From the IMG/VR virus record IMGVR_UViG_3300012920_009603, positions 1-27,268 of that record: a stretch of DNA of 27,268 nucleotides; one strand, given 5' to 3'. Shown here piece after piece: positions 5,476 through 26,880 of the stretch (its first letter is position 1; each line of letters starts with the position of its first letter). The position numbers were made by a program, and so were the translations under genes. Origin of the DNA: a virus. The notes below the pieces were generated by a model. It saw only the letters and a program-made list of their open reading frames with translations. It was not told the DNA's origin and searched no databases.

Positions 5476-6218
5476 TAAAGAGTTTCTCCAGATTGGAGTC
5501 GTAAATATTTTTTACCATCACTATAAGTTTTTATTTTATATCCCGCTTTAGTAAAAATATTAGTAAATTCAATTTCCATTTGGCTATCTGAAGCGTATTC
5601 ATAGCCTTTAGTATTTGATGAAGTTACATCTAATATATTTGGGGTTTGCATAAAATGGGGATAAGTTTCCCATATTTTATTAAATATTGTAGTAGAAGTA
5701 AGACCACACCCTCCATGAGCATGTGGGGGTCCCCCTCCAGTTGATGTAATATACCCATTTAAATCAAACGTAAAAGCATGTTTATTATGAACAAAATTAG
5801 AAGCTGCTACAAATCCCACATTAATATCTGATTCTAAAATATGGATCATGTCTTTAATGGCATTATCATATAATATGATAACATCATCTTCGTTAAAGTA
5901 CCAATAATCATAATCGTTTTGATATTTAAAAAAGGCATATTTGTAGGAACCAAAACTTAAATCATAATTAATACGAGGTCTATGTAAAATTCTAACTTTA
6001 CCATTGAAAATAGGTTCACCTTCATATCTATCTAAAATATTTTTAGATGTTTCATTTCCAGTATAGTGGTTAACTATTAATAAATCACATTCAATCCCTA
6101 AATCAAGATTTTTATGGTAAACAATTTGTTTGTTTATTAAATCTAAAACTTCTTGCTCATTTTTAGGATAGTGGCGACGTGAGCCTAAATAGGTAGCCAT
6201 TACTTGTACTGCTTTCAT
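5475..6218 (-). CDS. Putative GT-A-type glycosyltransferase
   Basis: The 247-residue protein opens MKAVQVMATYLGSRRHY. It has CDLLIVNHYTGN as a second strand, and a DxD-like acidic group in WYFNEDDVIIL (E110, D111, D112) where GT-A enzymes bind the metal-nucleotide. A later GGGPPHAHGGCGLTSTTIFN segment fits the acceptor-side region. No close family name can be given; it may be a GT2-like or phage-specific family. It ends two bases before the GT9-like gene begins upstream, and its stop overlaps the methyltransferase start (TAATG). Confidence 0.6.
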   Translation of the reverse strand: MKAVQVMATYLGSRRHYPKNEQEVLDLINKQIVYHKNLDLGIECDLLIVNHYTGNETSKNILDRYEGEPIFNGKVRILHRPRINYDLSFGSYKYAFFKYQNDYDYWYFNEDDVIILYDNAIKDMIHILESDINVGFVAASNFVHNKHAFTFDLNGYITSTGGGPPHAHGGCGLTSTTIFNKIWETYPHFMQTPNILDVTSSNTKGYEYASDSQMEIEFTNIFTKAGYKIKTYSDGKKYLRLQSGETL

Positions 6219-6220
6219 TA

Positions 6221-7177
6221 TTAATATACTTTAGAAGTGTTATCTTTAAACCAGTATTTAGTACCTCGAATGCAATTACTTCCTAATCCATCTTCACTGT
6301 AGGGGGTTAACGCAATTACTTTAGAACCACCCCCACTAATAGCATCTGTCATACCTGATTGATATCCTAAATTAAAATAAGCGTTTTGTTTAATATATAA
6401 TTGTTGTCTTAAAGTTAGTCCTAATTCTTCAAAATTAATATTATTTTTAAAAATATCCCCCCATTCTGTTTTACTTAAATCAAATTGAGAATAATAAAAC
6501 ACAGGCATATCCCTGAATTCCTGAGCATTAGGGAAAAGAATAGAATCAAATTCCCATCGACCCATATATTTTTCTACCCTTCCTGAGAATAGTAAGCAAC
6601 CATAAGGATTATTTCCTACATGTTTATTGATAATTTCATCACATTCTTGTTTTTCTTCTTTTGAAAAATATATTTTGGGTCTAGTATCCCACTGGGTTAG
6701 TTCTTCATCTGTTGCCCCATAAGCTCTTAATATTTGTTCAATTAAAGGTTCATTAAAATTATCTTTATAAGACCACACACGATAATGATCAGTGTATATT
6801 TCGTATTCCCACTCTCCAGGAGATAACCAATGATCTATATAGGGATCATGTTGCCATAACATATAACCTGTTTCCCAAGGTTTTTTAGTTATAGACGACC
6901 ACCTCCCCGCATTAAAAAGAGGTGCAAAAATTTTATGACATAAAGCAGGGTTGGGAACTGCAATTGTGCTATTAGGATATAATTTTTTAATGTGTTTAGG
7001 TAAAGAACTTAAAATTCCCCAATCTCCTATAGAATGAGCTGTAGGAGTAAAAGCAAAAGTAAAAGATTGATCTTTTTGGGGTTGAGGTATTTTTGTAGTT
7101 TCTTTATAAGATCCTAGCCTAGAAACTTCTACTCCTCTATCAAATAAAGCTTCGTTTAAAATTTGCCATACTCTCAT
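6221..7177 (-). CDS. Putative GT9-like (heptosyltransferase-type) glycosyltransferase
   Basis: The 318-residue protein looks GT-B-like. The first domain has a GDWGILSSLPKHIKKLYPNS stretch typical of the opening of ADP-heptose:LPS heptosyltransferases. Near residues 272-293, NLGYQSGMTDAISGGGSKVI resembles the SGxxHxAxxxG donor loop of family GT9. The middle holds aromatic, Trp-rich segments unlike standard GT9, so the family call is tentative. It starts with ATG overlapping the SDR stop (ATGA) and has AGGAGG three bases upstream. It may transfer a sugar to the growing glycan. Confidence 0.5.
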   Translation of the reverse strand: MRVWQILNEALFDRGVEVSRLGSYKETTKIPQPQKDQSFTFAFTPTAHSIGDWGILSSLPKHIKKLYPNSTIAVPNPALCHKIFAPLFNAGRWSSITKKPWETGYMLWQHDPYIDHWLSPGEWEYEIYTDHYRVWSYKDNFNEPLIEQILRAYGATDEELTQWDTRPKIYFSKEEKQECDEIINKHVGNNPYGCLLFSGRVEKYMGRWEFDSILFPNAQEFRDMPVFYYSQFDLSKTEWGDIFKNNINFEELGLTLRQQLYIKQNAYFNLGYQSGMTDAISGGGSKVIALTPYSEDGLGSNCIRGTKYWFKDNTSKVY

Positions 7178-7815
7178 AACCCTCCTGTAAGTTGAATTGT
7201 AGTTCCATTAATATAGGGACTGTTAATAAGAAAATCAATAGTTTGAGCTATTTCTTTAGGAGTCCCTAGTCTTTTTGAAGGAATATTTTTAATAGTTTGA
7301 TCAAGAAATTCTTTAGGTAAAGTATAAGTTAAACCCCCATCCATATACCCTAACTGGATACAGTTTGCTGTGATTCCCTTAGATGCATTTTCTAGAGAAA
7401 TGGTTTTAACTAAATTCTCATAATATGCTTTTGAAGCAGCATACACTGAAGTACCCATCACATTATTTTCAACTGTAATGCTAGATGCTAGAATAATTCT
7501 ACCATATTCTCTAGCTCTCATAGTTTTTAAAGCTCGAGAAATACACTCTGTTGTACCCTTGATGTTTATATCAATTTGCTTGTACAATTCAGGATCACCG
7601 TCTTTATACTTATGAAGAAAAGAATTATAATTGTAATTAGAAAATACTACTACTACGTCAACATCGTTATTCCTATAAAAATAATTAGAAATATGATGTT
7701 CTTGTGTAAAATCAACTTCCCTTGAACTAATAGAATCTACTTTATAATTAGTAAGATGTTGTATTACTTTAGTTCCTAATCCTCCACTTCCTCCAAAAAA
7801 TGCTATTTTTTTCAT
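7174..7815 (-). CDS. Short-chain dehydrogenase/reductase (SDR)
   Basis: The protein is 213 residues from ATG 7815, chosen because MKKIAFFGGSGGLGT begins right at the Rossmann strand. ATG 7836 would add seven residues and overlap the dioxygenase by 11 bases, and cannot be excluded. The NAD(P) loop is GGSGGLG. The catalytic serine region ILASSIT (S111/S112) and YAASK (Y125, K129) are present, and the end INGTTIQLTGGL matches FabG-like classical SDRs. It could reduce a keto group of a sugar nucleotide or related small molecule. Its last codons hold AGGAGG, the ribosome-binding site for the next gene. Confidence 0.9.
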   Translation of the reverse strand: MKKIAFFGGSGGLGTKVIQHLTNYKVDSISSREVDFTQEHHISNYFYRNNDVDVVVVFSNYNYNSFLHKYKDGDPELYKQIDINIKGTTECISRALKTMRAREYGRIILASSITVENNVMGTSVYAASKAYYENLVKTISLENASKGITANCIQLGYMDGGLTYTLPKEFLDQTIKNIPSKRLGTPKEIAQTIDFLINSPYINGTTIQLTGGL

Positions 7816-7825
7816 TGTTTTAAAA

Positions 7826-8695
7826 TTATATTTCATGCCCTAATATATCTTTTTGGGATAAATCTTTTTCTGAGTATTTCCCTTCTGCAACATGGGAAAA
7901 CATAGGAGAATAATAGTGATTACACCCTTCAAAGTAAAAATGGGTTGCTTGTGCATATCTCGTAGAGTTTGAATTTGATATTGGGGCTCCCCCATGTAGC
8001 AAATTAGAAGCCCAAATAATACACTCACCTTTTTTACCTAACCAATGTTTCTTTTTGACATCCATTGATTCTAATAATTGTACTAAAAAGTTTTCATACT
8101 CACTATAATTTTCAAACTGGTTTCCATACTCTACAACAGGTAGATTTAAATTTTGGAAATTATAATGAGGCCATTTATGAGAACCAGGTACTACTGTAAG
8201 GGGCCCACAGTCTTCAGTCATATCCTGAAGAGCAGTCCAGGTACCAACCATCCATCTTTGTGGTTCAGTATAAAAATGAATTGAATCTTGGTGTAAGGGT
8301 TGGTTACTACCTTTTAAAAAATTAATTGTTTGAAACGGAACAGGGTTTCGACCATATAATAATTTTAATGTGTTTATAATTTTAGGATGTTTAGCTAAAG
8401 ATAACACATTAGGTATAGTCTTCCATGCTTCAAAAACTCTTGGAGAATCAGAGTAATGATACTTATCATTTTGTGTTTTTAGTGATTCTAACTCGTTTTT
8501 AACATCTTTTAGTAAGGTATCAACAAATTCATCTGTTAATTCTAAATCAATTGTTATGTACCCATTTTCATAGTAATCAAATAAAACCTTTAATTCTTGT
8601 TCTGAGTAGTCACTGTTACCTACTAGTTTATAAAAGAAAGGTGATTCTATAAATGGAATATCTAGGGCATTTTTATCAGTGCTATAGTTTTTCAT
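7826..8695 (-). CDS. Phytanoyl-CoA dioxygenase (PhyH)-like Fe(II)/2-oxoglutarate oxygenase
   Basis: The 289-residue protein has the double-stranded beta-helix iron site: HQD at H135-Q-D137 (PLHQDSIHF), distal H234 (LLHGGAP), and R246 (STRYAQ) for 2-oxoglutarate. The substrate-side block GPLTVVPGSHKWPH is typical of the PhyH family. It should hydroxylate a small molecule or sugar using O2 and 2-oxoglutarate; the substrate cannot be told. Similar genes appear in glycan and small-molecule islands of marine phages. It overlaps the acyltransferase stop (TAATG) and precedes the SDR. An intact iron triad suggests it is active. Confidence 0.9.
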   Translation of the reverse strand: MKNYSTDKNALDIPFIESPFFYKLVGNSDYSEQELKVLFDYYENGYITIDLELTDEFVDTLLKDVKNELESLKTQNDKYHYSDSPRVFEAWKTIPNVLSLAKHPKIINTLKLLYGRNPVPFQTINFLKGSNQPLHQDSIHFYTEPQRWMVGTWTALQDMTEDCGPLTVVPGSHKWPHYNFQNLNLPVVEYGNQFENYSEYENFLVQLLESMDVKKKHWLGKKGECIIWASNLLHGGAPISNSNSTRYAQATHFYFEGCNHYYSPMFSHVAEGKYSEKDLSQKDILGHEI

Positions 8696-9261
8696 TACTT
8701 TTGTTTTAAAAATTTAGGATCATTAGCTAATTTAAGGACATTTTCTTTATTACGAGGTTTATGTAATTTAGCAGGGTTTCCTAAATATACCCCCCAAGGT
8801 TCTAAATCATTTTTAGTATAGATAAAACTTTTTGCTCCTACTGTACACCCTTCAGGGATTACAACTTTAGGAAATACCATTACATCTGATGCTATTCCTG
8901 AGTAATTTTTAAGGGTAATATCTCCTCTATAAATTTTATTATTACCCCAAAATTCATTTACAGGGCCTTCTTCTCCACTATAATCTTCAGAAGCACAAAA
9001 TAATTTAGACCCGTACCCAATAAAACACCATTTTCCTAAACTAATTTTATGTTGTTTACCACCCCCAAGGACAGCATGGGAACAAATCTGAGTGTAACTA
9101 TCTACTTCTAAAGCAGTAGTAATCAAACAAAAAGGATCTATTCTTACATTGTCAGCAAGATAAACTTCACTAGGATTTGTAAAAATTACATTATGTCCTA
9201 TAAATACATTTTTACCACAAGATCCTAAATGCTTTTTTATTTCTTCATTCCACCCAATCAT
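8695..9261 (-). CDS. Left-handed beta-helix (hexapeptide) acyltransferase
   Basis: The 188-residue protein is built of hexapeptide repeats ([LIV]-G-x4 type) from about residue 15 to 165, including NVFIGHNVIF, VRIDPFCLI, KWCFIGYGSK and VVIPEGCTVGAKSFI. It ends with the usual GNPAKLHKPR cap, like WbbJ/maltose-acetyltransferase relatives. An acetyl-CoA-dependent sugar O- or N-acetyltransferase is the likely role. It lies after the aminotransferase and a small gene, which fits acetylation of an amino sugar. The bases before ATG (TTAATAAGTTATG) match those before the gene at 19686-19940. Confidence 0.85.
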   Translation of the reverse strand: MIGWNEEIKKHLGSCGKNVFIGHNVIFTNPSEVYLADNVRIDPFCLITTALEVDSYTQICSHAVLGGGKQHKISLGKWCFIGYGSKLFCASEDYSGEEGPVNEFWGNNKIYRGDITLKNYSGIASDVMVFPKVVIPEGCTVGAKSFIYTKNDLEPWGVYLGNPAKLHKPRNKENVLKLANDPKFLKQK

Positions 9262-9267
9262 AACTTA

Positions 9268-9480
9268 TTAATTTTCTTTAAATATTTCTATCATTAAAAC
9301 ATTTTTATCATTTACCATTACAAAACTACCATCACGTAATTCAAATTTTGTAAATTGGCCTTGTCTAATAGTATGAGTATTTACTCCCTCTATTGTTTTT
9401 TTTTCTCCTCCTATAAAATGAATAATTTTAGTTACCCATTTTCCCTGGAGTTTGACTGAAGATTCTAGATCAACTGACAT
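9268..9480 (-). CDS. Small beta-rich hypothetical protein
   Basis: The 70-residue protein appears to be nearly all beta strand: VKLQGKWVTKIIHFIGGEKK, then GQFTKFELRDGSFVMVN and VLMIEIF. It has no Cys and no signal peptide. It has one of the better ribosome-binding sites in the island (AAGGA, nine bases before ATG), and it begins three bases after the aminotransferase stop. I do not recognise it; a small beta-barrel or Sm-like fold is possible but unproven. Confidence 0.6.
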   Translation of the reverse strand: MSVDLESSVKLQGKWVTKIIHFIGGEKKTIEGVNTHTIRQGQFTKFELRDGSFVMVNDKNVLMIEIFKEN

Positions 9481-9483
9481 TTT

Positions 9484-10668
9484 TTACCATCCTTTTTTAA
9501 TACAGTCTACTATATATTCTCTTTGTTCTTCAGTAACCCACCATCCTACAGGAATAGATACTATCTTACCTACGGTTTTATCAAGGTTAGGTAACGCTGT
9601 TCTGTATTCATGAGAACAAGTATGTTTATCATTTCGTTCATGTACTTGTGAAACCGAAACACCATGATCATGCATGTGTTTATAAAAACCATCTCGATTT
9701 TCTACTAACATACTGTAAATCCAAAATGCAGAATTAAATCCTTTTTCCCTTTTTAAAAGAGTAACTCCGGGAACATTTTGTAAATGTTTGTCATAAAATT
9801 TAGCATTTGATCTATGTTTACCTACTATATCTTTAACATATTTTAAATTTTCCATACCTACAGCAGCACATACATCGTTCATATGAAATTTAAATCCCCA
9901 TTCTTCAATATTAGCCTCACATCTAAAATCTTTTCTATCCCCATCTCGATCAATACCATACCACCTTAACAATCTGGCCCTTTTGTTTAATTCATTATGG
10001 GGAGAAATTAATATACCCCCGTCTACTGAAGTAATGTGTTTAATAGCTTGAAGGGAATACATTGTAAGGTTACCATGTGATCCTATTTTTTTACCTTTAT
10101 ACTCAGATCCAAATGAATGGGCTCCATCTTCAATTACTGCAGGTTGAAATCCAAATCGCTTACAAGCATTTTCTTGAATTTTTTTAATTCTATCTAAATC
10201 ATTAGGATAACCCCCCCAATGTACAAGCATTATAACTTTAGTTTTAGGAGTTATTTTTCTTTCTAAATCATCTAGATCCATATTAAGTGTAGTTGGATCT
10301 ATATCTACCCACTTAATTTTTAACCCATTTCCTAAAATGGGCCAATTAGAAGCAGTACATGTCATAGCAGTTGCTAGTACTTCATCTCCTTCTTCTAACC
10401 CAGGCCAATTTGACTCAACCCCAGCAACACCTGGTACAATCTGTTTAAAACTCTTAGAGGGCTTTTTTAACATGTGTAGCGCTAAATGTAAAGCTGAAGT
10501 ACCTGAATTTACTGTAGAAATATAATCGTTATTAAAATATTTGCTAAGTTGAGTTTCAAATTCATCAACTTTGGGACCCTGCCCTATATATCCACTATCT
10601 AATACTTTTCCTACTTCTTCTTTAGCAGTAGGAGCCATAAAAACTTTAAAAAGAGGTATTTGTTCCAT
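9484..10668 (-). CDS. DegT/DnrJ/EryC1/StrS-family sugar aminotransferase
   Basis: The 394-residue PLP enzyme begins with the family opening around SGYIGQGPKVDEFE. It also has NSGTSALHLAL, EDGAHSFGS (D181, contacting the PLP ring) and YSLQAIKHIT, with K210 as the PLP lysine, followed by DGGILI. These enzymes transaminate a keto group on a nucleotide-linked hexose, using glutamate. An insertion of about 25 residues between 70 and 95 (from KKPSKSF to GLEEGDEV) is longer than in most relatives. With the SDR and acyltransferase downstream it forms an amino-sugar set, though no dTDP- or UDP-sugar dehydratase is seen in this window. Confidence 0.92.
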   Translation of the reverse strand: MEQIPLFKVFMAPTAKEEVGKVLDSGYIGQGPKVDEFETQLSKYFNNDYISTVNSGTSALHLALHMLKKPSKSFKQIVPGVAGVESNWPGLEEGDEVLATAMTCTASNWPILGNGLKIKWVDIDPTTLNMDLDDLERKITPKTKVIMLVHWGGYPNDLDRIKKIQENACKRFGFQPAVIEDGAHSFGSEYKGKKIGSHGNLTMYSLQAIKHITSVDGGILISPHNELNKRARLLRWYGIDRDGDRKDFRCEANIEEWGFKFHMNDVCAAVGMENLKYVKDIVGKHRSNAKFYDKHLQNVPGVTLLKREKGFNSAFWIYSMLVENRDGFYKHMHDHGVSVSQVHERNDKHTCSHEYRTALPNLDKTVGKIVSIPVGWWVTEEQREYIVDCIKKGW

Positions 10669-11285
10669 TATAATGTATTATAAAACTGATTTTGTTGTTC
10701 TTGACGTTTAATATCCTTAATATGAATTAAACAAAATTCATCATTTGCAGGTAAATGAGATTCTGTTTTATGACCTGTTAAAACTTCATGTACTTTATTT
10801 TTCCATTTAATTCTTTTAACATTTTTCATAATACGGCATTGATAGTCCGGAAAATTTACTCTATTATCCTGATCAACATTCCACCCCCATTGAGTAACAT
10901 GTTCTTTAGTAAGCCCCTTTACTCTATTAATTCGAGGTACCCAAAATATATCTACACTATCATTCATTTTAATAACAGTTTCAATAGTATCCATCAAATA
11001 ATCATCTGGGTATTCATCGGCATCAATCTGAAAAATATAGTCCCCCGAACAGTGTTCTTTTAAATTATTTTTAAATGTTGCAAAATTACCATTTAGTGGA
11101 AACTTAATTACTTGAATTTTATCTTTATATTCTTCTAATACTTGGTATACACTAGGGGTAGTATTTCCTTCATCACATTGGACTACAATTTCGTCTTGTT
11201 CACGTTTATGTTTAAATAGATAATTTAGAAGATATTCTAATTGCATCCATTCATTACATACTGGTATAGCGTAGCTTATTGTCAT
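10668..11285 (-). CDS. Glycosyltransferase family 2 (GT-A)
   Basis: The 205-residue protein starts MTISYAIPVCNEW, the GT2 nucleotide-binding strand, and has the metal-binding DxD motif as DADEYPDD (D88, D90) at the usual distance. EIVVQCDEGNTTP takes the place of the second conserved Asp region. It is short, only the catalytic GT-A core with no added domain. The likely reaction is transfer of one sugar from a UDP-sugar or similar donor. It follows the zinc-ribbon gene (TAATG) and precedes the aminotransferase by the same overlap. Confidence 0.82.
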   Translation of the reverse strand: MTISYAIPVCNEWMQLEYLLNYLFKHKREQDEIVVQCDEGNTTPSVYQVLEEYKDKIQVIKFPLNGNFATFKNNLKEHCSGDYIFQIDADEYPDDYLMDTIETVIKMNDSVDIFWVPRINRVKGLTKEHVTQWGWNVDQDNRVNFPDYQCRIMKNVKRIKWKNKVHEVLTGHKTESHLPANDEFCLIHIKDIKRQEQQNQFYNTL

Positions 11286-11734
11286 TATTTATTCACTTCA
11301 AACATGCCAATATAATCCATAGCTTCTATGAAATCACGCTCTTTAAAATAAGAAGCATTTTTCATGTCCATTTTGTAAGTAGCATCTTCTGGAAAATTTT
11401 GTTTTTCTTCTTCTACAAGTTTTTTAGCAGGACAAGCTACCCAATTCCAATCATCAACTGAAGTACCCTGGATGAATATCATTCCTTTATTTTCAATGTT
11501 AATTGTAGAAGGAATCCAAGTAAGACCATTTTCATCTACTGAGGTTAAATCCTTATAGAGTTCGGGTAATACTTCTAATTGTTCTTCTAAAAATTCACTA
11601 TCTTTAGTCATTAGAGTATTAGTAGTAAACCCACACCCATAACACATATGAACTTTATAATCAGCTCCTAAATTATTTTCGTAGCAGGCATCACTACCGC
11701 ACCGAGAGCATATTGTTAATTTATCCTTTGACAT
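11285..11734 (-). CDS. Zinc-ribbon protein of unknown function
   Basis: The 149-residue protein has one N-terminal zinc ribbon: C9-x2-C12 (CSRCGS) and C31-x2-C34 (CYGCGF). An acidic helical part (EFLEEQLEVLPELYKDL) and a strand-rich middle follow, with GLTWIPSTINI, GMIFIQG and WNWVACPA. A C-terminal helix ends the protein (FKERDFIEAMDYIGMFEV). I know this only as a conserved protein of marine T4-like phages, and its role is unknown. It sits inside the glycan island, overlapping GT genes at both ends (14 bases, then TAATG), so it is co-expressed with them but need not act on glycans. Confidence 0.65.
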   Translation of the reverse strand: MSKDKLTICSRCGSDACYENNLGADYKVHMCYGCGFTTNTLMTKDSEFLEEQLEVLPELYKDLTSVDENGLTWIPSTINIENKGMIFIQGTSVDDWNWVACPAKKLVEEEKQNFPEDATYKMDMKNASYFKERDFIEAMDYIGMFEVNK

Positions 11735-13019
11735 CTTCTAATTTTTTAAGTTTAGGTAATCCTAACTTGGGGAGTTCTAATTTTATTTCTTTAGGAAACT
11801 CAGGTACGTATTGATCTAAATACCCCTTTAATTGAATAACCATTTGATTAAAATTAAATTCGGTACGGCTTTTATATGCTTGGCGAGTTGCTTTTTCCTT
11901 ATAATTTTTATAATTAGTAAAAACATCTCTCATGGCTACAACTGTTGCTGTATGGTCTACTCCAAACCACTCAAATTCTTTTATTAACACATCTTTTACT
12001 ACTGAACTATCATCTAATTTATGGAGTTGGCCTGGGAGGAGAGTAGTAAATTTAGGGTCTAAGAAATCTAAATGGCCACTCCAATTTGTAGCAATAATAG
12101 GTTTTTTAGTTAAACTAAATTCTAGTAAAGGACGACCAAAACCTTCACCCTTAGTTAAATTAATCATAGCCTTAACTTTATTGTGGGTATAGATTTCATT
12201 CATTTCTTCATCAGTAAACTCTCCTTGTAATAAATAAACATTAGGTAAAGTACGAGCATCTTCTACAGAATTTCGGATCATGTCAATTCGTTTGAGAATT
12301 TCATTTCTATCCATATAAGAAGTTCCTACTGTAGAAGTTTTTAAGATTAGAGCTGGTGTTTTCTTTTTATTTTTAAATGCTTCAAAAAATAATCTTACGA
12401 GTAATCCTACATTTTTTCTATCATGTCCTATATTACCCTGCATCCAGTGCCCTACAAACAAATAAGCAAAATCTTCTTCAATTTGGCTTAAATCAAAGGT
12501 TGATTTTTTAGGTTGATAGATATCTAAATTAGCACCTTCAATTAGTACTTCAATAGGCTTTTGTAATCTATATTCTCCTACTACTTGATTAGTTTCTTTA
12601 TTTCTTTGTTCAAATTTAATAGTTTCAAATACCTTAGCACTGTGGGTTGAAGAAGTTAATACTAAGTCCATTTTGTTACAACCTTCAACCCATGAGGGAT
12701 GACATCCTGTAGTTTCAATACCAGCTGTTAAACCTATATTATATTTTCCCACAGGTGTAAATTCATTTGGTACTGTTATTTGGCACCAAATTTCAGGCTG
12801 TTTTGGAAGTTGATTACCTACGGGAAGGAGATGAGGTATTAAAAAATCCCATTCAGGATGATCACCTATAAACCCCCAAGGTGTTTGCCCCCATCTTTGG
12901 GGTAAAACTTTAACATCATATTCATCTAATTCAATAAGAGCTTTTACAAAATCTCTAGCTCTTGCTCCGTAACCGCTGTACGTGTCAATCGGACAGCTTA
13001 CTATAAACATCGGTTTCAT
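11721..13019 (-). CDS. Glycosyltransferase family 4 (GT-B)
   Basis: The 432-residue second GT4 enzyme starts MKPMFIVSCPIDTYSGYGAR, with the glycine loop that opens the acceptor domain. The donor domain contains LFVGHWMQGNIGHDRKN and the EX7E motif GEGFGRPLLE (E292 to E300), followed by IIATNWSGHLDFL. It differs clearly from its neighbour at 13019-14452, so this is not a recent duplication. The C-terminal tail is Lys/Leu/Pro-rich (LELPKLGLPKLKKLEDVKG), possibly for membrane or partner contact. It overlaps the following zinc-ribbon gene by 14 bases. Confidence 0.9.
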   Translation of the reverse strand: MKPMFIVSCPIDTYSGYGARARDFVKALIELDEYDVKVLPQRWGQTPWGFIGDHPEWDFLIPHLLPVGNQLPKQPEIWCQITVPNEFTPVGKYNIGLTAGIETTGCHPSWVEGCNKMDLVLTSSTHSAKVFETIKFEQRNKETNQVVGEYRLQKPIEVLIEGANLDIYQPKKSTFDLSQIEEDFAYLFVGHWMQGNIGHDRKNVGLLVRLFFEAFKNKKKTPALILKTSTVGTSYMDRNEILKRIDMIRNSVEDARTLPNVYLLQGEFTDEEMNEIYTHNKVKAMINLTKGEGFGRPLLEFSLTKKPIIATNWSGHLDFLDPKFTTLLPGQLHKLDDSSVVKDVLIKEFEWFGVDHTATVVAMRDVFTNYKNYKEKATRQAYKSRTEFNFNQMVIQLKGYLDQYVPEFPKEIKLELPKLGLPKLKKLEDVKG

Positions 13020-14452
13020 TAATATACTAAATTATGTTGTGCAACTTTTTTCTTAAGGGGAATTGATTTAATCAACTCGTATTTAGATCGGGGTTTCCAA
13101 GTTTTAAATAACTTTTCTATGTTTTCTATAACTCTTTCTCCTTGATATTCCGCAGTAAATCCCGCTTCACTACTAGTAGCCCATTTTCTACCCAATAAAC
13201 CTACTGCTTTTCTACGTTCAGGATCTAAATTATAAACTTCTATAAGTTGATCAGCAGCATCACTAGCTTCACATCTATCATCAAAAATATAAGGAGTTGG
13301 GGGTGAACCTACAATTGAAATACTAGCAGGAAATACTGGGAAAGCCCAAGGTCCACACTTTTTAAATGTACCTCTATGGTTTGAAGGGAATAATTCATCA
13401 AATTCTATCCAAGTACCATTTTTAGTTTCAAAACGCATTTGATCTTGCATCCCCCCTGTTACATTAGCAATAATAGGATTACCCGCTAACATAGCTTCAG
13501 TTAAACTTAATCCCCATCCTTCATTTGAAGTAAGTTGAATTTGAACATCTGTACTATTATACAGTAAATTCATTTCTTCTGTAGAAAGTCTTTGTTGATG
13601 AAGAATTATATTATACCTTTCATCATCTCCACAAAGCATATCTATTACTGCAGGTAAATCAGTACCATTGGGATCCACAGCCTGAGTGTGTAAAACTAAA
13701 GCACATTCTTTGGCTTTTTCTAAAGGTAGTTTATCTACAAATTGTTTAAATGCCCATATAGTATCTGGTACTTGTTTACGGCGAATATTTCTAGAGTTAT
13801 AAAAAGCTACAAAATTATATTCTTTGTCTTTAAACAAATTTTTCTTAAATTCTACTAAATTAGAATCATCCTTTGCTAAAGGTTTATAAATTTCATGGTT
13901 TAAACCATGAGGGACGTATTCTATAATTTTGCTGTTTGCTTTTTCCCCTAAAACAATTTTATTTATATTAACAGTTTGTTTAGAAATACCCATTAATAAA
14001 TCACATGATTCATAGAATGCTTCGTTATAACGAGGTGCGGGGTAATCATCCCAAATATTAAGATAAATAATAGGAATTTTTCTTCGGATTTCTGCTTCCA
14101 TTTGGAATAACCAAGCCCAATATCTAGGATCAGTTATAATAAAAATAGCATCGGGTTTTTCTGTGCTTAGGATTTGTCTAAGCATATCAGGGTTACCATA
14201 CCCACTAGAAGGATAAACAATTACTGAGGCATCATCGATACCTGCAGCTTCATTAGTACTTTGGCTTAAATCTAGTTTTTTACCTACTTCAGGGTGTTCA
14301 ATAGCAGCCCCAACATTTACATAGTTAAAGTGGTGAGCTGTATGAAGTACTATTTCTTTTGCAATAGTACCAATTCCTGAGTGGGTTCTAATATCATCAC
14401 ACATCAACAAAATTTTCTTTCGTTGATTTTGTGGAATATAACCTTTTTTCAT
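13019..14452 (-). CDS. Glycosyltransferase family 4 (GT-B)
   Basis: The 477-residue protein is a GT-B enzyme with two Rossmann domains. The N-terminal domain begins at KKILLMCDDIRTHSGIGT; the C-terminal nucleotide-sugar domain has PHGLNHEIYKP, AFYNSRNIRRKQ and the EX7E motif NEGWGLSLTEA (E311 to E319), which holds the donor sugar-nucleotide ribose/phosphate. These are the marks of retaining GT4 transferases. It is the first enzyme of the glycan island, and its stop overlaps the next GT4 gene (TAATG), so the pair act in sequence. Acceptor and sugar cannot be told from sequence. Confidence 0.9.
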   Translation of the reverse strand: MKKGYIPQNQRKKILLMCDDIRTHSGIGTIAKEIVLHTAHHFNYVNVGAAIEHPEVGKKLDLSQSTNEAAGIDDASVIVYPSSGYGNPDMLRQILSTEKPDAIFIITDPRYWAWLFQMEAEIRRKIPIIYLNIWDDYPAPRYNEAFYESCDLLMGISKQTVNINKIVLGEKANSKIIEYVPHGLNHEIYKPLAKDDSNLVEFKKNLFKDKEYNFVAFYNSRNIRRKQVPDTIWAFKQFVDKLPLEKAKECALVLHTQAVDPNGTDLPAVIDMLCGDDERYNIILHQQRLSTEEMNLLYNSTDVQIQLTSNEGWGLSLTEAMLAGNPIIANVTGGMQDQMRFETKNGTWIEFDELFPSNHRGTFKKCGPWAFPVFPASISIVGSPPTPYIFDDRCEASDAADQLIEVYNLDPERRKAVGLLGRKWATSSEAGFTAEYQGERVIENIEKLFKTWKPRSKYELIKSIPLKKKVAQHNLVY

Positions 14453-17780: not shown

Positions 17781-19685
<1,905 letters not shown>

Positions 19686-19686
<1 letters not shown>

Positions 19687-19940
19687 TACAAAAAATTTTC
19701 GTTAAATTCGTTTAAAATTGATTTATATTCACTAATATATTGTTTTATACTATCATAAGACTTACCTTTCATAGTATTATCAGCTATTTTTTTAAGTGCA
19801 CCTCCAATATTTCCAAAATGACCAATACATGAGTCATAAGGGGTTCCACTACTAGGTGTAATAGTTTTATATGCTGAGTAGTTATACTCATCAATTACAA
19901 TGTAATAATCTCCCAACAGTGGGTCTCTTAAATATTCCAT
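19686..19940 (-). CDS. Hypothetical protein upstream of groES
   Basis: This 84-residue protein begins MEYLRDPLLGDYYIVIDEYN, a beta-hairpin-like start rich in Tyr and Asp. It passes through a Ser/Gly/Pro loop with one Cys (SCIGHFGN) and ends in a charged helix pair (DSIKQYISEYKSILNEF). I do not recognise a named family, though proteins with a similar opening occur in other phages. It is the first gene after a candidate promoter and its stop overlaps the groES start (TAATG), so it is co-translated with the chaperonins. A chaperonin-related role is possible only from position. Confidence 0.65.
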
Positions 19941-19965
19941 AACTTATTAATTTTTAATTTCGAGG

Positions 19966-19997
19966 TGAATATACGAAGGCTTCTTTAGGGCGCCAAA
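19966..19997 (-). promoter_or_regulatory. Candidate promoter for the orf84-groES-groEL unit
   Basis: On the minus strand, TTTG (19997-19994), exactly 20 bases, then TATATTCA (19973-19966). This is the same spacing as at 20508-20539, with a weaker second box than the Bacteroidota TAnnTTTG. A start near 19959 gives a leader of about 20 bases before ATG 19940. The 10-base string TTCGTATATT recurs at the left edge of the window. Confidence 0.42.
19983..19994. repeat. 12-bp inverted repeat, left copy
   Basis: CTTTAGGGCGCC on the plus strand pairs perfectly with 20479-20490. This copy falls inside the spacer of the candidate promoter for the groES/groEL unit, touching the last base of its TTTG element. 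A bound protein would block that promoter. Seen directly; the operator role is inference. Confidence 0.6.
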
Positions 19998-20003
19998 TTA
20001 TAA

Positions 20004-20423
20004 TTACTTAATCTTAATAGATTTTGGTTTTGATTCCTTCGTTAACGGGATGGATATTTTTAATAATCCATTAAGCATTTCAGCTTCAATTTTTGATAAG
20101 TCAAATTTAGGAGCAATTTTATATCCTAAGCTAAATGACTTTTTACTTAAACCGTGGTAAATGTAACCCGAATAATCTTGGGGTTTGCTACTTTCTGGTT
20201 TTTCATATGAGATATTTAATATATCTCCTTCTATTTTTAATTGGACATCATCCTTAGCTAAACCAGTACAAGCAATCTCAAAATAGAGACCATTCTCGTC
20301 ATAATAAATGTCTAGGGGATGGGGTTGTTTTGAATTTAGTGCAGGAGCAAATGCTTCATCTGCTTTAAAAAAGTTTCGATATAGAATATCGAATGGGGTG
20401 TGTTCATTGAATAATGTACTCAT
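20004..20423 (-). CDS. hsp20: Small heat shock protein Hsp20
   Basis: The 139-residue protein has an alpha-crystallin domain at about residues 36-130: the PLDIYYDENGLYFEIACTGL strand pair, LKIEGDILNISYEK, and the hallmark near the C-terminus MLNGLLKISIPL (the A/G-x-L-x-I/V-x-I/V-P signature). The tail ends SIKIK, an IxI-type motif that docks into neighbouring subunits. Hsp20 proteins are ATP-independent holdases that keep unfolding proteins soluble, and hsp20 is a frequent gene in marine T4-like phages. The gene stands alone between two gaps, is preceded by a candidate promoter, and is bracketed by a 12-bp inverted repeat, which suggests its own regulation. No clear Shine-Dalgarno is seen before ATG 20423. 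Confidence 0.92.
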   Translation of the reverse strand: MSTLFNEHTPFDILYRNFFKADEAFAPALNSKQPHPLDIYYDENGLYFEIACTGLAKDDVQLKIEGDILNISYEKPESSKPQDYSGYIYHGLSKKSFSLGYKIAPKFDLSKIEAEMLNGLLKISIPLTKESKPKSIKIK

Positions 20424-21039: not shown

Positions 21040-21792
21040 TTAATAATCTGCTTTTCGTACAACAAAATATGTAGTATCTATACCTTCATCCTCAGATGTA
21101 AAGATAAGGCGGAGCAAACCATCATCCACAAAACTCAAATGACATTCATCTGATGTTTTATTTGCATTAAATATTTCTCTAAGCATTTCACTGTTAAAAG
21201 GGATTTTATTATCTTCTCTAACACTATCACCAAACTTAGCATTAACATGAAATTCTACTTTATTAGAAAATTCCATTCGTTCTCCAAAAACAAACTTAAC
21301 AATAGGAGTGTCAATTGTATCCCTAGTAGCAGCTAATGTTACTATTTCATTTCCTTGAATAGCAGACGCTGCTCTAACAAATGTATGAAAATCTTCATTT
21401 TCAAGTGTTGCTTGTATTTTCCAATCAATATCTTCATCTACTTCACCCACTTTTTGGATCATAAGTGGATCCGCAAGTGAATAATTAATAGTAGATTTAG
21501 CATCTTGGATCGTAAGTTTAGTTAAAACTTTTTTAGTTTTAGAAGCGTCAAGCATTAAATCCCCTGCTAATACATTTAACAACCTATTAAGTTGTGTTGT
21601 ATTAAAAATAGCAAGTGTGCCATCTATTAATAAAGGAAAATTACTACATGATAATCTACCAATCATATCCTTGGTAGGTGCCATAAAATCAATATGTAAT
21701 TTTCCATTTTCAACTACCCATTTAACGGATTCTACTTTACCTCCAAGGTAATACTTAGAAATAATTGATTGGAGTGTATTTTTTGCTATCAT
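21040..21792 (-). CDS. 45: Sliding clamp, DNA polymerase processivity factor
   Basis: The 250-residue protein fits T4 gp45 (228 residues) in length, acidic character and position after the polymerase. Recognisable blocks are an N-terminal helix (NTLQSIISKYY), the strand pair around KLHIDFMAPTKD, the NTTQLNRLLNVL helix, and a C-terminal strand ending YFVVRKADY. Trimeric gp45 rings are loaded on DNA by gp44/62 and tether the polymerase; in T4 the same ring also activates late transcription. The ATG overlaps the polymerase C-fragment stop (TAATG), keeping polymerase and clamp on one message. The loader genes are downstream but separated by the chaperone block. Confidence 0.85.
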   Translation of the reverse strand: MIAKNTLQSIISKYYLGGKVESVKWVVENGKLHIDFMAPTKDMIGRLSCSNFPLLIDGTLAIFNTTQLNRLLNVLAGDLMLDASKTKKVLTKLTIQDAKSTINYSLADPLMIQKVGEVDEDIDWKIQATLENEDFHTFVRAASAIQGNEIVTLAATRDTIDTPIVKFVFGERMEFSNKVEFHVNAKFGDSVREDNKIPFNSEMLREIFNANKTSDECHLSFVDDGLLRLIFTSEDEGIDTTYFVVRKADY

Positions 21793-22718
21793 TAGAAGCT
21801 AAAGAATTTATTAATATTTGGGTTTAAATTTAAGGTCCATCCTAAATCATTATAAAAATTTTCTAATTTTGATTGTAAGATAGTTTCAAATGATTTTTTT
21901 CTATCTGCATAGTTATTTAGAAATGTACGCATTTTATCTGGCATATCAAAGTTAAGGAAGCCAATTACTTCAACTTTATAGGGATTATCAATTAAATAAA
22001 CCCATTTAATTTTATCACCTTGTACTATTTGGCTATGTCCTTTAATGTTCCAAAACTTAAGCAAATCATTATACACAATAGCCGCTTTAACATTCACAGG
22101 CGCACCTTTTTTAATTTCAGTCATTACTTCACCTGCTCGGGGTTTACGTCCTACATACTCATTTAGGGTCTTAACTGAAGTAGGATTACCTAATAAAGTA
22201 ATATCTGTGTCCTTAGACATAACTTTATCTCTAAATGCAAGAATTAAATCATCAATTTCTTTTTGTTTAGCCCCCTTTAGGATCATTTCTAAAATATCAT
22301 TGAAAAACTTACCAAACACAGGAGGAAAATTAGCTTTTCTAAATTCAAGTCCTTTAATATCAAGTGATTCTTTAGCAATGCCCTCTTGTTTTGTAATCCA
22401 TTGAGCATATCTACGAGTAGCCCTAAAATAAGCTGAGCGTATAACACATTCCGTTTTCATTTCAAGTCTATGTTCTTGAACATTAAAACAATCCCTAGCT
22501 AGTCTATCATAGTCAGCTGTGATAATATCTTGGTATTTGAGAGCAACTTGTTCTAACACATCATCTTTTTCTTTATCACTCATTTCCTCAAAATTAGGAT
22601 ACAAATGTTCTAATAAAGGTTCAGCATTAAAATAATTAGAATCTGTGTCTACATAGGCACAAAAATTATAATCACCCTCATCACAAATCCACCAAGGAGT
22701 ATCTTCTAAATGTTTCAT
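21792..22718 (-). CDS. 43: DNA polymerase family B, C-terminal fragment (motif C, thumb)
   Basis: The 308-residue protein has the family B motif C, AYVDTDSNYF, with the catalytic pair D24/D26 almost at its start. It continues as the rest of the palm and the thumb to the end of the T4-type polymerase (NYADRKKSFETI, then the Trp-containing tail DLGW). It has no exonuclease domain, motif A or motif B; those are in 24248-25930. The first 20 or so residues form a new leader before the palm strand. A TTG two codons upstream is open, but ATG 22718 makes ATGA with the cysteine synthase stop and is preferred. Its TAA overlaps the sliding-clamp ATG. Known T4-like polymerases keep motifs A-C in one chain, so this piece must assemble with the N-fragment. 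Confidence 0.92.
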   Translation of the reverse strand: MKHLEDTPWWICDEGDYNFCAYVDTDSNYFNAEPLLEHLYPNFEEMSDKEKDDVLEQVALKYQDIITADYDRLARDCFNVQEHRLEMKTECVIRSAYFRATRRYAQWITKQEGIAKESLDIKGLEFRKANFPPVFGKFFNDILEMILKGAKQKEIDDLILAFRDKVMSKDTDITLLGNPTSVKTLNEYVGRKPRAGEVMTEIKKGAPVNVKAAIVYNDLLKFWNIKGHSQIVQGDKIKWVYLIDNPYKVEVIGFLNFDMPDKMRTFLNNYADRKKSFETILQSKLENFYNDLGWTLNLNPNINKFFSF

Positions 22719-23593
22719 AAGCAACTAAAATATCTTTCACCTCTATCACAAAGGATTGTAACTACATTAGTAGCATATCCTTCTTTTATAAGGCGTTCAG
22801 CAACAAGATAATTAGCAGCTGCTGAAAATCCAACAAAAAGTCCCCATTGTTTTGCTAGGCTTTTAGATTTATCTATAGCATCTTGAGTTGGAACTACTTC
22901 AATTCTATCTATATCCTTTAAATCTACTAAAAATTTACTACCATCCCCTATACCCTGGATCCCATGTAAACCAGGTTCGCCCCCAGACATTACAGGAGAT
23001 TCAGCAGGTTCTAGAGCAACTAATTTACATTCAGGGTACATATTTTTTATAAATTTTCCCGCTCCCATTATAGTTCCCCCAGTTCCGGTTCCTGCTACAA
23101 AAGCATCAATTTTTTTATTTAATGGAAAATCCTTACATACTTCAAATCCTGTAGTATACCAATGAGAAGCAGTATTCAATTCATTATGAAATTGATTGAA
23201 ATTAAACCAACCATTATCTTTAGCTAGTTTATTCCTTAATAAAATAGCACCATCAAAATCACCAGCAGGAACTTCCACTAATTTTGCACCAAAAGATTTT
23301 AACATAACTTTACGTTCAGTGCTCATATTTGAGGGCATTACTATAACACATTTAAACCCCATATTAGCACAAAACATAGATAAAGAAATACCCATATTAC
23401 CTGAAGTAGCTTCAACAATAGTATCTCCTTTTTTTAAATCTCCGTTACATAGTGCTTGGTTTAAGATATAAGCTACTGGTCTATCTTTTATAGAACCTCC
23501 AGGATTTGTAAATTCTGCTTTACCCCAAATTGTTCCTTTTTTTAAGGGGAATTCTAAAAGAGGTGTATTTCCTACTATATCTATTAGTTTCAT
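22715..23593 (-). CDS. cysK: Cysteine synthase (O-acetylserine sulfhydrylase), PLP-dependent
   Basis: This is a complete fold-type II PLP enzyme of 292 residues (family usually about 300-320). It shows the PLP-lysine motif NPGGSIKDR (K36), the substrate loop EATSGNMG (63-68), the phosphate-binding loop GTGTGGT (168-174) and the C-terminal CDRGERY block. The expected reaction is O-acetylserine plus sulfide to cysteine plus acetate; related sulfhydrylases or cystathionine beta-synthase-like enzymes are alternatives. I chose ATG 23593 because it makes an ATGA overlap with the DUF2452 stop, has GGA upstream, and begins directly at MKLIDIVGNTPL; ATG 23605 is also possible. The gene lies between the two polymerase fragments and overlaps the second by ATGA. 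No cysE or sulfate-assimilation gene is nearby, so it would draw on host O-acetylserine. Confidence 0.9.
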   Translation of the reverse strand: MKLIDIVGNTPLLEFPLKKGTIWGKAEFTNPGGSIKDRPVAYILNQALCNGDLKKGDTIVEATSGNMGISLSMFCANMGFKCVIVMPSNMSTERKVMLKSFGAKLVEVPAGDFDGAILLRNKLAKDNGWFNFNQFHNELNTASHWYTTGFEVCKDFPLNKKIDAFVAGTGTGGTIMGAGKFIKNMYPECKLVALEPAESPVMSGGEPGLHGIQGIGDGSKFLVDLKDIDRIEVVPTQDAIDKSKSLAKQWGLFVGFSAAANYLVAERLIKEGYATNVVTILCDRGERYFSCL

Positions 23594-23988
23594 ATTTTTT
23601 TCCATTTTTGGTCTGTTTCTAACTTAAATGATCCTAAACAATGCTTATTCCACTCATTAGGAGATATTAGTGATAAAAAGTTCTTACCATCCTCTCCCAT
23701 ATATAAATGATAAATTTCTCCTACTATTGGTTCAAAATTAAATTTTGCGTTATAAACTAAATCATTCCACTTAAATTCTTCAATTAGTTTATTATATTCA
23801 TTTTTAAGTTCTAGAAACTTAGTTTCTAAATGGTGGTTTACTTTAGTTATTCCTTGTTTTCTCCAACTATCTATATTGTCTGGTTTAATAACAGGAGCGC
23901 CTACATTAGAAGCATAAGGTAGTATATTAGCAACCCACCTTTGCTTGTCTTCATCCCAAGCTACATTATCAGGATATTTTTTAGGCAT
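23590..23988 (-). CDS. DUF2452-family protein
   Basis: The 132-residue protein matches the DUF2452 pattern as I know it: an N-terminal LPYASNVGAPVIKP block at about residues 23-36, a helical middle, then FEPIVGEIYHLY and LSLISPNEW near residues 85-112. Proteins of this family are small, occur mainly in Bacteroidota and some phages, and have no established function. The gene is the second of three between the polymerase fragments. Its stop TGA overlaps the favoured start of the cysteine synthase (ATGA). The family assignment is from memory of the motif; a profile search would settle it. Confidence 0.7.
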   Translation of the reverse strand: MPKKYPDNVAWDEDKQRWVANILPYASNVGAPVIKPDNIDSWRKQGITKVNHHLETKFLELKNEYNKLIEEFKWNDLVYNAKFNFEPIVGEIYHLYMGEDGKNFLSLISPNEWNKHCLGSFKLETDQKWKKI

Positions 23989-24251
23989 TAAAATCTAGCC
24001 TCAGGATCAGGAATTTGAATAATACCCCCATCTTTGGTCCCCCGTGAAGTTAAAATAGGATCTTCAATAATAATTTTAAATTTATTATTATCTATTTTAA
24101 CTGTACCTCCTTGTTTAACCATTTTTCTAAAGTAAACAATTTGTTTTTCATTCCAAAGTGCACTCATATCTATAATTTCTTGTTTAGAGATGGGTTCTCC
24201 ATTCCAAGTAATTTTTACGTTATTTCTAATTGATTGGGGTGTTAATTTCAT
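23988..24251 (-). CDS. Hypothetical protein inside the split polymerase locus
   Basis: This is an 87-residue soluble protein that I do not recognise as a named family. It begins MKLTPQSIRNNVKITWNGEP, has a helical middle (about 22-46) and ends in a beta-rich, Lys-rich part (GGTVKIDNNKFKI) with a proline-containing tail. It has no Cys pair, membrane segment or nuclease motif. Its ATG overlaps the stop of the polymerase N-fragment (ATGA), and its TAA overlaps the next ATG (TAATG), so it is translated as part of the polymerase transcript. It is the first of three genes between the two polymerase pieces. Nothing suggests a homing endonuclease. Confidence 0.7.
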   Translation of the reverse strand: MKLTPQSIRNNVKITWNGEPISKQEIIDMSALWNEKQIVYFRKMVKQGGTVKIDNNKFKIIIEDPILTSRGTKDGGIIQIPDPEARF

Positions 24252-25930
24252 AATTCTACTTCATTTCTAATTACACGATTCATATGTCTATTAGCACATA
24301 AGGCCGATTCCTGAATAATTCGTTGACCTGATAGAGTAATAGCTTCACTCAAAATTACATTACCATATCTAAATGAGCCTAAAGCAGTAGCCCCATATAA
24401 ACTATTTAACAAAATTTTCATTGTGTGTTGGCGTTGGTGCCAAAACGCTCCTTTTTCTTTATCTCCTGCTTTATATGCTTTTTTCATATAACCTTTATAT
24501 TCTACTCGTTCATCAAACCACTTATCCAAAATAGTAGCTAGTACCGAACGTTTATCAGTGCGGAATATAACACCATTTGCAGATATAGCAAAGTTATTAT
24601 CTTCTATAAACTGAATAAGTTTGTTTACTTTAATATAAGTTTGTTTACGTTCTGGGTTTTCAATAAGTAATTCTTCATCTCCATCCCGTTCCTTTAAATC
24701 ATTTAATCCTAGACGATTATTTCTATCATCACTATCTATAATACGAGCCATAAGTGTTTCTTTACCTATGTTGAGAGACATAATAATAGAAGGATATAGT
24801 GAAGTTAAATCCTCATCAAACATATATTTATAAAGTCCTGCTTGTGGGCAAAATAAATAACCACCAGCATATCCTTTTTTATATATTGGGTTTCTATCTC
24901 TAGAGGGGGGAACAATATTTTGTCCTAATAAATAAGCAGAAATTGCTCCATCTTGGGTTTTAGTATTAGCATAAACCTCACCATAATTGTGTTTTCCTTT
25001 ATGTGATAGATTTTTTACAAGGCCAATATATTCAAATTTTTCATCTAGCTCCTTAAGTATTTCTACATCACGAAAATTATACTTAATAAACTTTTGAATA
25101 TCATCTTCAAATAATCTATCTAAATTTCCATCATATTCAATTTTACCTAAACCTACATATTTTTCTCCAATAGCATCTAATCGCATAGAGGGTTCATCAC
25201 GAAAACTAAATTTTTTATGTAGTTTCATATAATCTAGTGATTCAACTCCAGCAATATTAAGCCATCCATTACGATTCCAAGCGCTTTCATCTTTTACAAC
25301 ATCAATAGGAGATAAAGCATTAGCAAAATCTTCACCTAATACTCTACTAATTCTATAGTAAAGATAAGGGATATCAAAATAGTCACTATTCCATCCTACA
25401 AGAATATCTGGGTTTATTTCTCTGAACTTTTCAATGAATTTACCTAGTAATTCTTCTTCTGTTTTACAAGGAATAATTTCCTTATGTCCTTTAGTATGTT
25501 TAATTTGTTCCTTTTTATCTAAAATAAGGATAACCCATTCATTAGGTGTTTTATCATACCAAGCAATTGAAGTAACAGGTTTAGGAGCTTCTTGAATATA
25601 CTCTTCAGTAAGAGCTCCACCCATTTCAATCTCAATATCAAAAAATACCTCTCTATGCCCCTTAGATATAGTATCATCAGTCCCATATTTTTCAATAAGA
25701 AACTTTTGGTAAGCAGGCATATCGTGAAAGTGAAGTTTAGGATTATCTTTATCCCAATTATAGGTTTTCTTTAGCCACTCACCTTTTAGTCCTTGGTATT
25801 CTGCCTCACGTTCTGAACACTCTACATAAGCTGGGACACGGTAGGGGATTATTGAGTAGCCTTCTTCTTCCCATAAATGTATTTTATACTGATTTTTACC
25901 AGCATATTCAGCATAACATTTTTTATACAT
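24248..25930 (-). CDS. 43: DNA polymerase family B, N-terminal fragment (exonuclease, motifs A and B)
   Basis: The 560 residues carry the 3'-5' exonuclease domain: Exo I FFDIEIE with D98 and E100, Exo II GWNSDYFD at 179-186, Exo III YNFRD at 284-288. They also carry palm motif A, DLTSLYPS, starting at D374, and fingers motif B, KILLNSLYG, with K505, N509 and Y512. The frame then stops 55 residues after the motif B lysine, before motif C. The rest of the enzyme is encoded separately at 21792-22718, after three unrelated genes. Together the fragments give 868 residues, close to T4 gp43 (about 900). No intein splice junction is visible at the end. Alone this fragment could proofread and bind DNA but lacks the second catalytic aspartate, so it must pair with the other piece to polymerise. 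Confidence 0.93.
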   Translation of the reverse strand: MYKKCYAEYAGKNQYKIHLWEEEGYSIIPYRVPAYVECSEREAEYQGLKGEWLKKTYNWDKDNPKLHFHDMPAYQKFLIEKYGTDDTISKGHREVFFDIEIEMGGALTEEYIQEAPKPVTSIAWYDKTPNEWVILILDKKEQIKHTKGHKEIIPCKTEEELLGKFIEKFREINPDILVGWNSDYFDIPYLYYRISRVLGEDFANALSPIDVVKDESAWNRNGWLNIAGVESLDYMKLHKKFSFRDEPSMRLDAIGEKYVGLGKIEYDGNLDRLFEDDIQKFIKYNFRDVEILKELDEKFEYIGLVKNLSHKGKHNYGEVYANTKTQDGAISAYLLGQNIVPPSRDRNPIYKKGYAGGYLFCPQAGLYKYMFDEDLTSLYPSIIMSLNIGKETLMARIIDSDDRNNRLGLNDLKERDGDEELLIENPERKQTYIKVNKLIQFIEDNNFAISANGVIFRTDKRSVLATILDKWFDERVEYKGYMKKAYKAGDKEKGAFWHQRQHTMKILLNSLYGATALGSFRYGNVILSEAITLSGQRIIQESALCANRHMNRVIRNEVEL

Positions 25931-25950: not shown

Positions 25951-26880
25951 TTAGGTCTGTGGATTGATCCCCCGCCGACGTTTTTTTTTTTGAGAAGATT
26001 TTTCACCATATACTTCTAGTGGTTTTTCTACTTCAATAATTTTTTCAATCACTTTAATTTCTTCTTTAACTGAAGGACGTAATTCAACAAAAGCAAAATT
26101 TGCAGCTATCACTAAAGATATGGCTAAGGGATCAAAAACAAAAATTATTGTTAAAAGAAGATAATTTATTATTTTATCCATACTTAAACCAGTTAAACCT
26201 GCTAAATATTTAAGTGGACCTAATTCACTTCCAACTTCACTATTAGTTTGTACTTCTACTATTTTAGTTTCGTATTCAAATAGTTGTTGATTTAAATCAT
26301 CCACTCTAGAATTTATTACAGTTTGTCTTTCGATTGCTTGATCTAATTGGCGTTCAAGGGCCCTACGAGTAGCACCCGAAGTTGTTGTTACAACATTGCC
26401 TAACGTGTCTGTATACTGTATTACATTGTTAGATAGACCATCACGTAATGAAGCCACGGCAGTATTAATAGAATTCTTTTCTTCAGTGTATACCGCAAGT
26501 TGTTCTTTTACATTATCTCTTTTAGTTTCTATAAGAGCAATTTGAGAATCAACACTACCTGCTAATGCTGCTGTTTCTTGATAAGCCGCAGATAAAAACC
26601 CATAAATTCCCGCTGAAGTGATTAATACAAGAATAAAACAAGCAATTGATAAATAAGTTCTAAGTGCCTTATTTATTGTATCCCAATATTGATAAAGTAA
26701 AGAAGCTATTACAAGTTTAGAAACTTCCAATGAACCCGCCATTATAAGCACCTCAGTTGAAGCACCAGCAAACAATTTACTTAATCCTGTAACTGAGTAA
26801 AATGCTGCTGATGCTGAAACTGATAGGGCACTTAAGGCTATGATAAAAGGAAATATTCTTTCTTGTAGCTTCTTAAGCAT
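25951..26880 (-). CDS. Integral membrane protein with central coiled coil
   Basis: The 309-residue protein has three hydrophobic helices in the first third (about residues 10-30, 42-62 and 77-97), then a long soluble region. That region is rich in Glu, Gln, Lys and Arg and predicts as coiled coil (about 105-145 and 170-215). A fourth membrane helix follows (about 239-262), and the tail is strongly basic (KKKRRR, near 298-303). Close relatives are common in marine T4-like phages as conserved membrane proteins of unknown role. It may hold a replication or virion component at the inner membrane, but that is a guess. It sits directly before the DNA polymerase and its start overlaps the thioredoxin stop (TAATG). 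Confidence 0.75.
   Translation of the reverse strand: MLKKLQERIFPFIIALSALSVSASAAFYSVTGLSKLFAGASTEVLIMAGSLEVSKLVIASLLYQYWDTINKALRTYLSIACFILVLITSAGIYGFLSAAYQETAALAGSVDSQIALIETKRDNVKEQLAVYTEEKNSINTAVASLRDGLSNNVIQYTDTLGNVVTTTSGATRRALERQLDQAIERQTVINSRVDDLNQQLFEYETKIVEVQTNSEVGSELGPLKYLAGLTGLSMDKIINYLLLTIIFVFDPLAISLVIAANFAFVELRPSVKEEIKVIEKIIEVEKPLEVYGEKSSQKKKRRRGINPQT

Follow-up and report, generated by a model that had tools for sequence, protein, structure and literature searches.

A T4-type DNA polymerase divided between motifs B and C in a clade of metagenomic phages, with a candidate homing origin

Rhodothermus phage RM378 is related to T4 and carries the parts of its polymerase on separate genes, with the seam between the exonuclease and polymerase domains. 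A division of the T4-type replicative polymerase gp43 has been characterized in Aeromonas phage 25, in which the 43A and 43B proteins co-purify and polymerise (Petrov, Ratnayaka and Karam 2010, as cited in PMC2988022) and the two parts of the split gene flank a GIY-YIG endonuclease gene (PMC2988022). Freestanding homing endonucleases also split essential phage genes in nrdA of Aeh1 (mobE) and topoisomerase gene 60 of T4 (mobA), and the split NrdA of Aeh1 assembles to an active enzyme (PMC2988022). In the archaea Methanothermobacter and Nanoarchaeum, PolB consists of two polypeptides (Kelman 1999; Choi 2006; reviewed in PMC4104785), and the account given in that review has the Nanoarchaeum enzyme trans-spliced by an intein and attributes the archaeal split to inteins. 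Here, we examine IMG/VR virus record IMGVR_UViG_3300012920_009603 (the window, which comprises the whole fragment of 27,268 bases), in which gene 43 is divided into 43A and 43B by a break between motifs B and C. An active split gp43 is already known from phage 25, at a different seam; what appears to be new here is the origin of the split, with the broken loop as a putative recurrent target of homing cassettes, which a preliminary description of the window had missed. A literature search from which subscription journals were largely absent turned up no account of this seam, of a split shared by a whole clade, or of gene 43 conversion tracts.

The N-terminal PolB chain, 43A (positions 24248..25930, minus strand), has 560 amino acids, matches PF00136 and PF03104 in profile searches, and ends in the conserved tail GQRIIQESALCANRHMNRVIRNEVEL. 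It carries the exonuclease, motif A, and motif B, and its motifs were located as DIE at residues 98–100, YNFRD at 284, DLTSLYPS with D374 of motif A, and NSLYG with K505 of motif B. The C-terminal chain, 43B (21792..22718, minus strand), has 308 amino acids and matches the C-terminal parts of phrog_262 and phrog_1918; its head MKHLEDTPWWIC is followed by DTDS at residues 24–27, RRYAQW, KGLE, and the thumb, and its C-terminal FFSF is possibly clamp-binding. All exonuclease motifs and polymerase motifs A, B, and C of a T4-type family B polymerase are present across the two proteins, with the catalytic Asp of motif A on 43A and the catalytic Asps of motif C on 43B. The preliminary description had reported gene 43 in two pieces, broken between motifs B and C and with three intact genes between them, and its coordinates, gene order, and placement of the break were confirmed. 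Its sum of 79 residues from Lys505 of motif B to Asp24 of motif C was recomputed and stands, but the approximately 18 residues it regarded as extra do not necessarily come from the cut, as an intact relative (L208) has 77 (K510–D587). Its view that no core residues were lost agrees with a profile alignment in which 43A ends at RB69 residue ~609 and 43B starts at ~607, which places the seam at RB69 gp43 residues ~607–609, just ahead of D621/D623; the window's break precedes motif C by 23 residues. Of the gene joins it had listed as ATGA or TAATG, the ATGA, TAATG, and ATGA junctions are correct, but the remaining pair, DUF2452 and CysK, overlaps by 16 nucleotides. As it had stated, the window's own seam contains neither an intein nor an endonuclease, and an Rfam search of the seam returned no intron match.

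Structure models place the break in a loop of the polymerase fold. L208 and L209 encode the same polymerase as a single chain of 888 amino acids and are 55% identical to 43A. The L208 model (predicted local distance difference test 88.8; predicted template modeling (TM) score 0.81) has a Foldseek TM-score of ~0.8 to RB69, and its only internal stretch with a confidence below 50 (residues 570–572) falls in the seam-equivalent loop between helix 530–559 and strand 583–587. Because the break sits in a flexible loop, the halves may be able to fold together without a peptide bond. When 43B was folded alone, the thumb was confident and the best match was RB69 (E-value 3.9e-8), and residues 1–14, 86–102, and 108–114 scored below 50. 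These low-confidence stretches correspond to palm structure in the one-chain L208 model, in which palm strands 650–685 are confident whereas their counterparts in 43B alone are mostly below 50, and these low scores fit a chain that requires its partner. Both models are consistent with an RB69-like fold.

The same seam was then sought in relatives, which are metagenomic; as some loci are one contig fetched twice, distinct counts are given where possible. Within a first set of 80 close relatives, all that span both halves are split at the identical place, and further scans brought the window clade to 146 loci (115 distinct; 45 clusters at 85% identity) that break in one loop with zero to six genes between the halves. 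Across this clade, the tail of 43A (GQRIIQESAL.AN.HMN) is largely conserved, as is the head of 43B (PW[WF]IC....N..Y.DTDS). In 26 distinct alleles the seam is empty, the halves mostly meeting in an ATGA overlap; elsewhere it contains as many as six genes, drawn from a total of 26 families of which ORF87 is the commonest. More than 150 nucleotides separate the halves in 101 of 140 loci, as against 16 of 140 at the junction of 43B with the clamp gene, which rarely takes up cargo. Two loci from independent metagenomes (L007 and L152) have the window's cargo in the seam. Endonuclease genes occur in the seams of L004/L005 (GIY-YIG) and L059 (HNH-like), and most seams in the clade are without one. 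In one relative (L042:4884-5816), a 6-nucleotide insertion places an in-frame TAA within motif C of 43B (SDT*ADS), which could be a sequencing error, decay, or recoding. These are marine T4-like phages, with a gp23-type capsid gene in 6 of 10 large relatives and a T4 replication module in the window; from gene content, they possibly belong to Far-T4 (PMC4360716).

Several lines of evidence suggest that the two halves make one enzyme. Both 43A and 43B are under strong constraint, with a ratio of nonsynonymous to synonymous substitution rates (dN/dS) of 0.04–0.18 for each, and their pairwise distances are correlated (r 0.84, against a permutation maximum of 0.17). The absence of a second intact polymerase, which the preliminary description had made a test of its proposal, is testable only in relatives longer than the window, and it holds in ten related records of 100–170 kb, which contain the split PolB, no other family B polymerase, and only below-cut-off matches to PolA. 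An obligate two-chain polymerase is the most likely reading of 43A and 43B. The earlier proposal of a two-chain enzyme with its active-site aspartates on different polypeptides is thereby supported, at the level of sequences and models, by the clade-wide split, the motifs, purifying selection, correlated divergence, the single PolB, and the fused relative.

The origin of the split is best seen in a sister clade, which was reached through an ORF87 search and consists of 78 loci from a scan with the G012 polymerase. Eight of these loci are split, all at residues 565–573 of 862, just before DTDS at 579, and the rest are intact or partial; G014, a split relative reached via ORF87, breaks in the same loop. 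The seam of L433 contains a whole GIY-YIG/NUMOD endonuclease gene, that of L432 an HNH-like gene, and that of L427 a zinc-ribbon endonuclease-like gene, and the other split seams, apart from that of L430, contain unrelated genes. The L430 copy of the gene that is whole in L433 (L430:2343-2990) lies in two reading frames of 57 and 156 amino acids, which suggests an endonuclease decaying after the split. Compared with an intact relative, each of the eight split alleles is 85–99% identical outside the seam and 32–46% identical at residues 566–602, a tract of ~35 codons around motif C, whereas 105 intact pairs of comparable overall identity have a tract minimum of 62%, with none as low as 32–46%. 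Seven of the eight are 78–88% identical in the tract to the split allele of another branch, the L427 tract being its own, and several split pairings are closer inside the tract than outside it (86% versus 80% for L428 and L432; 88% versus 80% for L429 and L435). At the DNA level, a segment of 17–139 bp near motif C has been replaced relative to the intact gene. Together, the tract identities and the replaced DNA form the footprint of homing co-conversion in the sister clade. A whole-protein tree that includes window-clade members requires nine changes between split and intact, of which well-supported branches force at least eight. Split alleles are scattered in the 43A tree as randomly as shuffled labels, whereas in the 43B tree they cluster, with three changes.

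Taken as a whole, the best explanation, and in our judgment a probable one, is an unspliced two-chain T4-type polymerase that was split by a homing cassette and then fixed. The two chains would come together unspliced as a single T4-type replicative polymerase of family B, to which 43A would supply the N-terminal domain, the exonuclease, motif A, and the fingers with motif B, and 43B the motif C hairpin, the remaining palm, and the thumb, with the break in the flexible loop between the post-motif B helix and the motif C strand. The cut itself would go back to a freestanding homing endonuclease cassette that landed in an unbroken gene 43, in the stretch coding for motif C, so that 43A stopped early and 43B acquired a start of its own. 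In the window lineage, the split would have become fixed and the endonuclease usually lost, after which the tolerated junction would have taken up other genes; the window is probably this fixed end stage. We also lean, a little less firmly, toward the split being a mobile allele, in which the cassette swaps the motif C segment for a diverged copy and converts intact alleles. Fixed in the window lineage, such a selfish insertion would have ratcheted a one-chain enzyme to an obligate two-subunit one and left the junction as a landing site for cargo. The seam endonucleases of the two clades are homologous (51% for the GIY-YIG proteins of L004/L005 and L433; 44% for the HNH-like proteins of L059 and L432). 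Because the loop and the endonuclease families are the same, we infer a homing origin for the window clade's own, older split, as we infer physical assembly and activity of the halves from sequences and models.

A number of observations weigh against this explanation. The window's own seam has no endonuclease, its clade is nearly all split, and the intact members are too few for a conversion test there. Four of the eight sister-clade split alleles are without a recognisable endonuclease, and the HNH-like label of L432 and L059 was read from the sequence only, with no Pfam match. The clustering of split alleles in the 43B tree may come partly from longer branches. Finally, L208 is possibly a re-fusion, or the split possibly arose after L208 had branched or arose a second time: the split clade is well supported, with L208 and L209 grouping inside it beside split members (ultrafast bootstrap 98; Shimodaira–Hasegawa-like approximate likelihood ratio test 92), and rejection of a tree uniting all split members is no more than marginal (approximately unbiased test, p 0.048). 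The split alleles beside L208 and L209 (L210–L220 listed) are about 55–63% identical to them, and a natural re-fusion is possible.

If the split of the window clade arose by ordinary insertion or rearrangement, for example by relocation of ORF87 into gene 43, the polymerase would still be two-chain but homing would have had no part in it. We consider this unlikely. In its favour, no other gene occurs in the seam as often as ORF87, which in phages with an intact polymerase sits elsewhere, next to the gene for the membrane protein, and most window-clade seams have no endonuclease; yet 26 distinct split alleles have an empty seam, and one loop has been hit repeatedly in different lineages, with the same endonuclease families there in both clades. 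There is a slimmer chance that an ancestral gene 43 was fractured by a split intein at motif C and that the seam is the scar left when the intein parts were lost. L127 (L127:5001-9084) has a gene 43 of this fractured kind, in which PolB is interrupted by a split intein right after motif C (GDTDS/CDSETL... and ...ILIHN/SNH) with a separate gene of 322 amino acids between, and intein loss has been proposed for archaeal split PolB (PMC4104785). The 484-kb uncultured phage LR756508 (L082, LR756508.1 251363-269165) likewise has intein-like insertions at motifs B and C, besides a split close to the window's seam in which several genes lie between the halves. However, the window breaks before motif C and not within it, and the conserved tails and heads of its clade contain no intein motifs. 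Because the LR756508 polymerase groups with intact polymerases in trees, its split appears independent; a scan with its 43B found no relatives.

It is very improbable that the halves are joined after expression, whether through trans-splicing of an intron or intein or through frameshifting. The bare ATGA overlap at some seams would suit such joining, but the seam has no Rfam match and no intein motifs, whole genes lie between the halves in most relatives, and the halves have a conserved stop or start of their own. A decayed duplicate, a pseudogene, or an assembly artefact is scarcely credible, and nothing was found in its favour; the relatives contradict it, with a common seam and cargo in independent metagenomes (L007, L152), selection on both halves, and one PolB per large record.

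The genes in the window's seam and directly beside it are all on the minus strand. ORF87 (family F1; 23988..24251), with 95 seam copies, has 342 relatives in viral contigs, lies in the seam in most split-polymerase relatives, and has no meaningful match in Pfam, PHROG, or PDB. Its absence outside the seam had suggested a seam-specific third subunit, a proposal weakened by copies elsewhere in the genome beside intact polymerases (G012, G017). A predicted membrane protein is encoded just upstream of 43A (25951..26880), and its homologue adjoins ORF87 in G011, G012, G014, and the record of L329. The other seam cargo consists of a DUF2452 protein (family F5; 23590..23988) and a CysK/CysM-like pyridoxal phosphate enzyme (family F7; 22715..23605). 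For cargo family F2, a Toxin_BN_H match far under the cut-off was discarded, and the sequence reads as Smr-like. Clamp loader and clamp genes are present in the window, the sliding clamp-like gene (21040..21792) directly downstream of 43B. Genes for GroEL, GroES, and Hsp20 adjoin the replication genes (17781-20423), and GroES/GroEL likewise follow the clamp in the intact relative L208. A long series of glycosyltransferase-, methyltransferase-, aminotransferase-, and dioxygenase-like genes occupies positions 2834-14452, and the seam cargo of L155, L157, and L174 is similar in kind to these genes.

If our explanation is correct, a selfish gene has turned an essential one-piece enzyme into a permanent two-piece one. 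How multi-subunit machines originate from single proteins is a long-standing question, and the case for neutral ratchets is usually made in retrospect. In this polymerase, the likely stages stand side by side in close relatives: intact, endonuclease-split, with a decaying endonuclease, with other cargo, and as a fixed lineage. The route from homing to subunit would thus become testable in one enzyme of well-known structure, and the seam could offer split DNA polymerases a natural cut site.

Like Aeromonas phages 25 and 44RR, the window has a T4-type gene 43 in two cistrons with motifs A and C on separate chains. In 44RR, motif A is in 43A, and 43B includes profile positions 492–557 with motif B and also contains motif C; the Aeromonas seam therefore lies before motif B, whereas that of the window lies after motif B, is clade-wide, and holds metabolic cargo. 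Phage 25 has an endonuclease gene between the halves, which the window has not, but its relatives L004/L005 and L059 do. Archaeal split PolB is cellular and attributed to inteins, and in the window neither intein nor splicing was seen. Fractured genes with split inteins, such as that of L127, share with the window an interrupted replication gene and a freestanding gene in the gap, but the window and its clade are without intein halves. Relative to nrdA of Aeh1 and gene 60 of T4, which are other genes, split and intact alleles of gene 43 coexist here in close relatives with conversion tracts visible between them, and in the window clade the split appears to have outlived the endonuclease.

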